Positions 27,526-55,852 of a stretch of 64,000 nt of DNA are shown one piece after another. Source of the stretch: Firmicutes bacterium FC7 (GTDB lineage Bacteria; Bacillota; Clostridia; Tissierellales; Tissierellaceae); contig JAKELU010000001.1 of NCBI GenBank assembly GCA_022760735.1, forward strand, positions 402,774 to 466,773, given 5' to 3'. The stretch's first letter is position 1. Each line of letters begins with the position of its first letter. A program made the translations under genes and the position numbers. The notes under the pieces were generated by a model. The model searched no databases and was not told the DNA's origin. It saw only the letters and a program-made list of their open reading frames with translations.

Positions 27526-27552
27526 TTGAGCTTAAACGTGTTAGATTATAAT
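27526..27552 (+). promoter_or_regulatory. Likely promoter of the preQ1-riboswitch transcript
   Basis: TTGAGC at 27526-27531, 15-nt spacer, perfect TATAAT at 27547-27552. Predicted start near 27559 puts the riboswitch stem P1 at about +10. Confidence 0.55.
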
Positions 27553-27568
27553 AGTCATTTTTATTCTG

Positions 27569-27609
27569 AAAGTGTTTCCTTGGGACCCACTTTAAAAAAA
27601 TCAAGGGAG
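27569..27609 (+). promoter_or_regulatory. PreQ1-I riboswitch
   Basis: P1 is AAAGTG (27569-27574)/CACTTT (27588-27593) with a 13-nt loop TTTCCTTGGGACC. An A-rich tail (27594-27600) follows, then CAAGGGA. The loop TTCCTTG pairs with CAAGGGA (27602-27608) to make the P2 pseudoknot, the hallmark H-type fold of preQ1-I. The pseudoknot strand is the Shine-Dalgarno AAGGGAG of the next gene (ATG at 27618), so ligand binding should block translation. No terminator lies between, fitting translational control. Confidence 0.85.
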
Positions 27610-27617
27610 TGATTATT

Positions 27618-28322
27618 ATGATAAGATACAGCAGGATTTTAGAAAAAAATCCACGTGAAATTGTACTTTTAAAATCGCGCCCATGTAGTTGGGGGCGTTG
27701 TTTTTTTTGCGATTATATTGATGATAATTGCACTGATGACTCAGCCATTGTTGAATTTAACCGAAAAATTTTAAAAGAGATAACTGGTGAGTTTAAGAAA
27801 TTAGAAGTTATAAACTCAGCTAGTGTATTTGAATTGCCTGAGGAAAGCTTACAGGATATAAAGGACATAGTTTTCAAGAAAGGGATTAAAGAGCTATATT
27901 TTGAAAGCCATTATAGCTATAAAGATAGGCTTAATGAAATAAGATCCTATTTCCCAGGTGTAAATGTTAAATTCAAAAGTGGCATAGAAACTTTTGATGA
28001 CGAATTTAGAAACAAGTATTTAAAAAAAGGCGTTGTATTTAAGAATCCAGAGGAGGTAGCAAAATATTTTAATATAATTTGTTTATTAGTTGGAATCAAG
28101 GGACAATCAAAAGAAATGATTTCAAATGATATTGATATTCTACTAAAAAATTTTGAACGTGGTTGTATCAATATTTATGTAAATAACACTACACCAGTCA
28201 AGGCAGATCCTGAGCTCATTGCCTGGTTCAAAGATGAATATTCTTATCTTGAGGATATGGATAATGTAGAAATTCTATGGAATAATACTGATTTTGGGGT
28301 AGGTGGACAAGATGAAGACTAA
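27618..28322 (+). CDS. queL: Radical SAM enzyme, probable queuine lyase (QueL-like)
   Basis: A 234-aa compact radical-SAM-like protein. The cluster motif is CSWGRCFFC (Cx4Cx2C, cysteines about residues 23-31), not the canonical Cx3Cx2C. Its SD is part of a preQ1-I pseudoknot and it overlaps queT by 11 nt, so it acts in queuosine metabolism. The clostridial queuine-salvage route uses a radical-SAM queuine lyase, QueL, to make preQ1 from imported queuine, with QueT as transporter. The gene name is an inference from context, size and cysteine pattern. Start: ATG 27618 (AAGGGAG at 8 nt). Confidence 0.78.
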   Translation: MIRYSRILEKNPREIVLLKSRPCSWGRCFFCDYIDDNCTDDSAIVEFNRKILKEITGEFKKLEVINSASVFELPEESLQDIKDIVFKKGIKELYFESHYSYKDRLNEIRSYFPGVNVKFKSGIETFDDEFRNKYLKKGVVFKNPEEVAKYFNIICLLVGIKGQSKEMISNDIDILLKNFERGCINIYVNNTTPVKADPELIAWFKDEYSYLEDMDNVEILWNNTDFGVGGQDED

Positions 28323-28782
28323 TAAACTTGTAAGAGGAGCAGTAGTAGCAGCACTTTACGCAATTTTAACATTAACATTGCCAGCCTATGGAGCTTTACA
28401 ATTTAGACTATCTGAAATTTTAACCTTGCTAGCATATTTTGATCCATTTTATGTAGTACCTCTAACAATAGGGTGTGCCATTGCAAATATTGCTAGTCCC
28501 TTTGGTATAGTTGATGTTATCTTTGGAAGTTTGGCTAGCTTCTTAGCCTTAACATCCATGAGTAAAACTAAAAATATCTACTTAGCTAGTATCTGGCCTG
28601 CATTTTTTAGTTTTATTATTGGATTGGAAATCATGTTTCTATCTACTGAGCCAGTGAATTTCCTTTTAGTAACTGGGCAAATTATGCTTTCTGAATTTGT
28701 AGTTGTAACTATAATCGGAGTACCAGTAATGAAATATCTAATGAGAAATGAATATGTGGAGAGGTTAGTGACACAAGTTTAG
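28312..28782 (+). CDS. queT: QueT-family queuosine-precursor ECF transporter S component
   Basis: A 156-aa membrane protein with about five helices. LVRGAVVAALYAILTLTLPAYGALQFRLSEILTLLAYF is the QueT signature region (basic start, then FR-x-E). ECF S components work with the shared EcfA/A'/T module, which is not in this window. It shares the preQ1-I-controlled transcript with the radical-SAM gene. ATG at 28312 follows AGGTGG. It likely imports queuine or a related 7-deazaguanine. Confidence 0.93.
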   Translation: MKTNKLVRGAVVAALYAILTLTLPAYGALQFRLSEILTLLAYFDPFYVVPLTIGCAIANIASPFGIVDVIFGSLASFLALTSMSKTKNIYLASIWPAFFSFIIGLEIMFLSTEPVNFLLVTGQIMLSEFVVVTIIGVPVMKYLMRNEYVERLVTQV

Positions 28783-28823: not shown

Positions 28824-28874
28824 CAAAATGATAGTACCTTGATATTTTACCGTATCAAGGTGCTATCATTTTAT
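28824..28874. terminator. Bidirectional terminator, one of two related stem-loops
   Basis: AAAATGATAGTACCTTGATA pairs with TATCAAGGTGCTATCATTTT across an 8-nt loop, with T-rich flanks. It separates the convergent queT and anti-sigma ends. The arms are nearly identical to the stem-loop at 35851-35916, so it may be a copy of a dispersed element recruited as a terminator. Confidence 0.85.
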
Positions 28875-55625: not shown

Positions 55626-55635
55626 ATATAGCTCA

Positions 55636-55728
55636 TACGAAACTCCCTACGTTGGCATTACCCAAATCAGGTTCAAGGGTCGAAGTTAACAACTTCCTCT
55701 CAGCCCGTTCACGAGCTCCCCATCGCTT
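55636..55728 (-). ncRNA. TPP riboswitch (thi-box)
   Basis: Read on the minus strand it contains GGGGAGC, GGGCTGAGAGG, CGACCCTTGAACCTGATTTG and GGGTAATGCCAACGTAGGGA, the conserved thi-box segments. CGA/TCG-flanked P1 arms close it. With the terminator at 55598-55625 it forms a transcriptional thiamin-pyrophosphate switch for thiMED. Confidence 0.96.
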
Positions 55729-55852
55729 TTTAATTTTATTTAAGTATATCACAATGAAAGTGATTTAACAATTACATTGTTTATATTCAATTTTTATGTA
55801 TTCTATAGAATTTATCTATATTACTTAATATAATAGTATATATTTATATTAA

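Follow-up and report, generated by a model that had tools for sequence, protein, structure and literature searches.

A probable class-I preQ1 riboswitch of variant sequence overlaps the Shine-Dalgarno of a queL-queT operon and recurs across Tissierellales

The control of queT and of queK-qrtT-queL by class-I preQ1 riboswitches (preQ1-I) has already been published (PMC11477304, PMC11625349, PMC12519234). In C. difficile, such a switch lies upstream of queK-qrtT-queL (PMC11477304), and the regeneration of preQ1 from imported queuine has been described in the same species (PMC11477304, PMC11130926). The bases forming the alpha site of class I are the G-C pair that closes P1, a U in L1, a specificity C before the P1 3' strand and an adenine in L3 (PMC11625349), and in the published consensus the two bases leading into the P1 3' strand are UC in type I and AC in types II and III. 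Type III, which has a shorter loop and AC at the specificity site, is nearly confined to Pseudomonadota and controls yhhQ (PMC10622847, PMC11625349). Because preQ1-I control of queT and of a queL operon is published, the locus described here is a further case of known biology; what is new, judging from sequence comparisons, is a variant aptamer that Rfam misses and that is spread through one order.

The window (the whole stretch of DNA analysed, 64,000 nucleotides from Firmicutes bacterium FC7, Tissierellaceae, Tissierellales) contains a 40-nt element at 27569-27608 on the + strand, immediately followed by queL and queT. Its features, with the basis of each in brackets, are as follows.

27547-27552, + strand: TATAAT box resembling a -10 element (sequence; similar boxes lie 5' of the element in relatives)
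27569-27574, + strand: P1 5' strand, AAAGUG (sequence; covariation at columns 4-6 of the alignment)
27575-27587, + strand: 13-nt loop TTTCCTTGGGACC, as RNA UUUCCUUGGGACC (sequence)
27588-27593, + strand: P1 3' strand, CACUUU (sequence; covariation)
27594-27601, + strand: A-rich L3 strand AAAAAAAU, seven A and one T (U) (A run invariant in the alignment)
27602-27608, + strand: P2 3' strand, CAAGGGA, partner of 27576-27582 (sequence; compensatory changes in P2)
27603-27609, + strand: Shine-Dalgarno (SD) of queL, AAGGGAG, within P2 (8 nt 5' of the ATG at 27618)
27618-28322, + strand: queL, radical SAM, 234 aa, Cx4Cx2C at residues 23-31 (homology to PDB 6P78; fold)
28312-28782, + strand: queT (PF06177, E 5.5e-37; start picked by likeness to relatives)
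28825-28872, + strand: long intrinsic terminator-like hairpin that ends the operon (terminator scan)

The initial annotation had described the leader as a P1 helix, a 13-nt loop, an A-rich tail and a CAAGGGA strand pairing with the loop over 7 bp, and every one of these parts is found in the sequence. The loop begins with the pocket U of L1, continues with the P2 5' strand TTCCTTG (27576-27582), which can form up to 7 bp with CAAGGGA, one of them U-G, and closes with L2, whose last base is the specificity C27587. The placement of CAAGGGA at the ribosome site also stands: AAGGGAG is the sole plausible SD for the gene starting at ATG 27618, it overlaps the P2 strand, and up to six of its seven bases could pair in P2. 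The TATAAT box would put the transcription start near 27559 and leave a leader made of almost nothing but the switch; the promoter scan at 27547-27552 did not list this box and gave no good -35. The gene upstream of the leader is CAAX-protease-like and unrelated.

Taken from the window sequence alone, the pseudoknot is mildly unusual and a claim built on it would be weak. A comparable pseudoknot forms in 61 of 5000 shuffled leaders (about 1%), and the single-strand fold of the leader is no better than that of shuffles (z = 0.1). The Rfam covariance match by which the initial annotation had proposed to check the switch was not obtained, as RF00522 scores 12.4 bits at the leader against a gathering score of 39 (gathering and permissive Rfam scans). 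Nested alternative folds match P1 or P2 in stability, so the SD may be partly hidden even without ligand. Two hairpins were rejected: UCC/GGA within the window's loop, which relatives with GCACC, GUACC or GUCC are unable to form, and AUCA/UGAU around the SD, which relatives with AACAAGG are unable to form.

It is through relatives, and not in Rfam, that the proposed preQ1-I pseudoknot on the SD finds its support. Upstream of queL in the window's family, the motif is nearly unchanged and the flanks have diverged. An exact search pattern imposing no gene condition (GTGTTNCCTTGN{2,5}CCACN{5,18}CAAGG) matched 19 of 249 genomes of the order and 3 of 391 genomes of the class, the window genome counted, and the reversed pattern gave zero matches in the same genome searches. 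All exact matches sit 5' of queT or of queL-queT, the contig of one genome (G025) ending within queL. The upstream regions of 80 further queT-family genes yielded about 32 additional instances, and a covariance model built from 42 instances located the element in 114 of the 249 genomes of the order, nearly always once per genome. For at least 82 of 91 placed matches, queT lies downstream on the same strand, at 20-250 nt or, with queL in between, at about 715 nt; for some of the others the contig end is reached before queT. Among 398 genomes sampled across the phylum, most of them not of this order, the model gave besides the window one weak match, inside an open reading frame (ORF). Two matches were discarded as chance, one (L152) because it lies inside an ORF and the other (L056:1999-2040, minus strand) because it is antisense to queL. 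Finally, a held-out model, from which the window's family and every queL-queT instance had been left out, finds 27567-27613 at 53 bits (E 2.4e-9), the runner-up in the 64 kb reaching 16 bits.

Both helices covary. Of the cells of the alignment, 92.6% are paired; shuffles reach 87.9% and slid partners 35-56%. Both sides are changed in 29 cells, where shuffles give 7.5. In P1, G-C is replaced by A-U in 7 sequences, and A-U by G-C or U-A also; in P2, C-G is replaced by U-A at the fifth pair in 7 sequences, and the fourth pair changes once (UUUG/CAAA, L098). Apart from these changes the CUUG/CAAG core is constant, so that the support for P2 rests partly on these two columns and on the switching of expression platforms described below. 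A correlation of the second L2 base with the base before P2 is not claimed, as it tracks lineage. By these comparisons the leader is confirmed as a genuine conserved RNA element, far beyond what chance would give, and comparative genomics supports a class-I preQ1-type pseudoknot overlapping the SD.

The assignment of the radical-SAM gene to QueL is borne out. Residues 1-229 of the 234-aa protein match, over the full length, PDB 6P78 (E 1.2e-70), a structure of the Clostridium spiroforme queuine lyase determined with SAM and queuine; a Pfam scan of the protein gave nothing above cutoff. The suggested alignment of a predicted structure with a known QueL agrees: the AlphaFold model (pLDDT 87) superposes on 6P78 with TM 0.93, rmsd 1.5 and 52% identity, the next fold matches being far behind. 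The Cx4Cx2C cluster motif had been singled out as unusual; it is present (CSWGRCFFC) but is the normal motif of QueL, since 6P78 has the same spacing (CIWGKCSFC) and C23, C28 and C31 are kept in all 10 QueL proteins compared, which come from this order, from other Clostridia and from Betaproteobacteria. Homology and predicted fold thus strongly support the identification of the protein as a queuine lyase. As also annotated, queT overlaps queL by 11 nt, its ATG at 28312 preceding the queL stop at 28322. Its product scores 127.7 bits with PF06177 (gathering score 33.7), which supports its being QueT, the substrate-binding subunit of an ECF transporter for queuosine precursors.

Several observations on these gene families were made in passing. 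Four of the five QueL proteins scanned resemble archaeal RaSEA (TIGR01210) weakly, in the radical-SAM half (E about 1e-9; 36-39 bits, cutoff 212), which suggests, as a lead only, that two radical-SAM enzymes working on the side chains of 7-deazaguanines have a common origin. QueL homologues, 44-51% identical, occur in Betaproteobacteria (L006-L009; metagenome-assembled Burkholderiales and Neisseriales), and in L007 and L008 the homologue lies directly 3' of an apparent YhhQ-type transporter gene. At L065 (G009, about 338-480), a decayed queL remnant (MIRYLGIHDMNPLENILLESPPCKLGRF... then a stop) separates the switch from queT, which indicates that queL was lost from a queL-queT operon and the switch kept. 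The second PF06177 gene of the window genome (L002, C22:5162-5614) belongs to a different subgroup (MNxxYLTKASLIAA) and lies 3' of an RNase J-like gene; no such switch was seen upstream of the genes of this subgroup examined in the window genome and others, and the product of this second gene may transport something else. Other RNA elements seen were a TPP riboswitch in the window (55627-55731, - strand, 66.9 bits) and a T-box leader at L102 (253-490, + strand, 106 bits), where queT is encoded on the other strand.

The genome as a whole has the gene set expected of a salvager, namely Tgt, QueA and a final reductase without the de novo enzyme QueC. Bacterial Tgt is found at E 3e-180 (TIGR00430, 596 bits), QueA adjoins it (503 bits) and QueG scores 314 bits (cutoff 200); QueH is absent from the genome, which was searched for it, and QueG takes its place. 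The search for QueC gave no convincing match, the candidates of the window genome scoring 20-22 bits in frames longer than QueC. Weak matches of this search, which overall reach 20-33 bits in such longer frames, are read as other ATP-pyrophosphatases. De novo synthesis of preQ0 is therefore unlikely, and the gene set fits the regeneration of preQ1 from imported queuine.

Four things are established: the pseudoknot is conserved, it overlaps the SD, QueL and QueT are identified, and the genome has Tgt, QueA and QueG. We consider it very probable that the 40 nt of the leader form a class-I preQ1 riboswitch, in a lineage-specific sequence form, which represses translation of queL-queT. When preQ1 is low, P2 would open or be outcompeted by the ribosome, AAGGGAG would be free, and QueL and the overlapping QueT would be made; QueT, with a shared ECF core, would import queuine or related precursors, QueL would use radical-SAM chemistry to release preQ1 from queuine, and queuosine would then be completed in tRNA by Tgt, QueA and QueG. 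When preQ1 is high, it would pair with C27587 above the G27574-C27588 floor and lock P1 and P2 as an H-type pseudoknot, burying AAGGGA and turning off translation of queL and, via the overlap, of queT. Repression of translation by preQ1 is likely; we infer its ligand, direction and coupling from sequence, as we do the ECF core and the substrate of the window's QueL.

The pocket bases bear on this reading in both directions. The G-C floor of P1, the L1 U and the specificity C, these last two being the first and last bases of the loop, are present in all instances, although the patterns used to collect instances partly demanded them. Immediately ahead of the P1 3' strand, the window carries CC, as do 44 of 47 true instances (2 have AC and 1 has UC), and the window thus lacks the UC/AC signature of types I-III. 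The base directly 5' of the P2 C is U in 31 of 48 pattern instances, including the window, and A in the other 17; canonical aptamers place there the A that reads preQ1. These two departures speak against the preQ1-I reading, as does the shortfall in Rfam, where all relatives checked are under the RF00522 cutoff (best 27.8 bits). An extra G-U pair between this U and the second G of CUUGG (G27583 in the window) could form in 28 of 42 sequences, and if this pair extends P2 it is possible that the L3 A returns to its place and that L2 has four bases, the length of L2 in Thermoanaerobacter tengcongensis (Tte). The leader may on these grounds represent an undescribed fourth sequence subtype of preQ1-I, found in one order only, with distinctive features at the pocket (CC step, U before P2, GNACC loop), three interchangeable expression platforms and possibly a different stoichiometry or ligand preference, a proposal on which we are nearly evenly divided and lean slightly against. 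Type I binds two ligands and in type III the SD touches the ligand; as subtypes thus differ in real chemistry, a form with altered pocket-side bases directly tests the range of the smallest riboswitch.

The same bases could point to a sister of preQ1-I with shifted specificity, recognizing the substrate side of the pathway (queuine, queuosine or preQ0) instead of preQ1. Bases beside the pocket are altered (44 of 47 have CC, and most have U before P2), the first gene of the window's operon would consume queuine, and variants at conserved pocket positions can gain new ligands (PMC11625349). We nevertheless find this explanation improbable, as there is no change in the specificity C, the L1 U or the G-C floor, which read preQ1, most genomes carry this form on queT alone, like ordinary preQ1-I, and a queuine sensor that shut down its own uptake and cleavage genes makes less sense.

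By a simple rule, the P2 3' strand coincides with the SD in 30 of 53 instances, the window included; this rule miscounted L048 (1501-1570), where CAAGGG is able to form a helix with one arm of a terminator (ACAUCCC-UUUU-GGGAUGU-U7). In that terminator version, CAAGGGAU would act as the anti-terminator strand against ACAUCCC. Terminators also occur at L107, L109, L111 and L113, and probably at L112. In L076-L081 and L118-L125, an ACUCC element that can pair with a separate SD (GGAGU) shares bases with a stretch complementary to the loop of the aptamer (e.g., CUUGG/CCGAG, CACU/AGUG). One aptamer thus has three outputs, as a ligand sensor predicts and unlike a fixed hairpin that hides the SD. The idea that the leader is no metabolite switch at all, and merely a conserved SD-hiding hairpin that attenuates at a constant level or is bound by a protein or small RNA, can appeal to P2 being stable by itself as a 7-bp hairpin. 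We judge it very unlikely, because conservation extends to P1, the A-rich strand and the unpaired bases of the loop, none of which is needed to hide the SD, the same aptamer is joined in relatives to terminators and separate SD hairpins, the tie to queT holds almost everywhere, and the class-I preQ1 architecture and pocket bases are present. This spread of platforms around a nearly fixed aptamer provides a clean natural series for expression-platform studies. As for the pseudoknot being an accident of an AT-rich leader in which the genes alone matter, the roughly 1% of shuffled leaders with a comparable fold and the want of a significant Rfam match lend it next to no credence, since it is refuted by order-wide conservation with diverged flanks, zero reversed controls, covariation and held-out detection.

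Because Rfam misses the preQ1 switch proposed here in the 114 order genomes (of 249) that carry it, every instance checked being below cutoff, this control of queuosine salvage is invisible in current databases. The variant has possibly been counted already under the 521 published type II examples (McCown 2014); our literature search found no paper linking preQ1 riboswitches with two plausible taxon names.

Among the known systems, the C. difficile switch likewise controls genes of queuine salvage, among them queL and one for a QueT-type transporter, whereas the window operon is queL-queT without queK and its aptamer is a variant form that overlaps the SD. From its sequence, the window's QueL would differ in nothing that matters from 6P78, with which it shares full-length homology, 52% identity and the Cx4Cx2C motif, and archaeal RaSEA likewise acts on a 7-deazaguanine side chain, its substrate being tRNA-bound. 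The aptamer resembles type II (Tte queT, Bacillus subtilis queC) in its H-type pseudoknot, G-C floor, L1 U, specificity C and A-rich L3, in a tail (ACAAGG/UCAAGG) with the SD in P2, and in the existence of both translational and terminator versions. The Tte loop ends in UAAC, which the AUAAC loop ends of the relatives L051 and L061 resemble. In contrast to type II, however, the form described here has CC in place of AC ahead of the P1 3' strand (44 of 47), a nearly invariant CUUG/CAAG core in a P2 of up to 7 pairs and, in most instances, a U before the P2 C, and it falls under the Rfam threshold. With type III (E. coli yhhQ) it shares a pyrimidine-rich loop starting with UU and an SD whose AAGG is entirely paired in P2; burial of the SD in the window is more complete than in Tte and nearer to the full occlusion that has been reported in type III (PMC11625349, PMC10622847).
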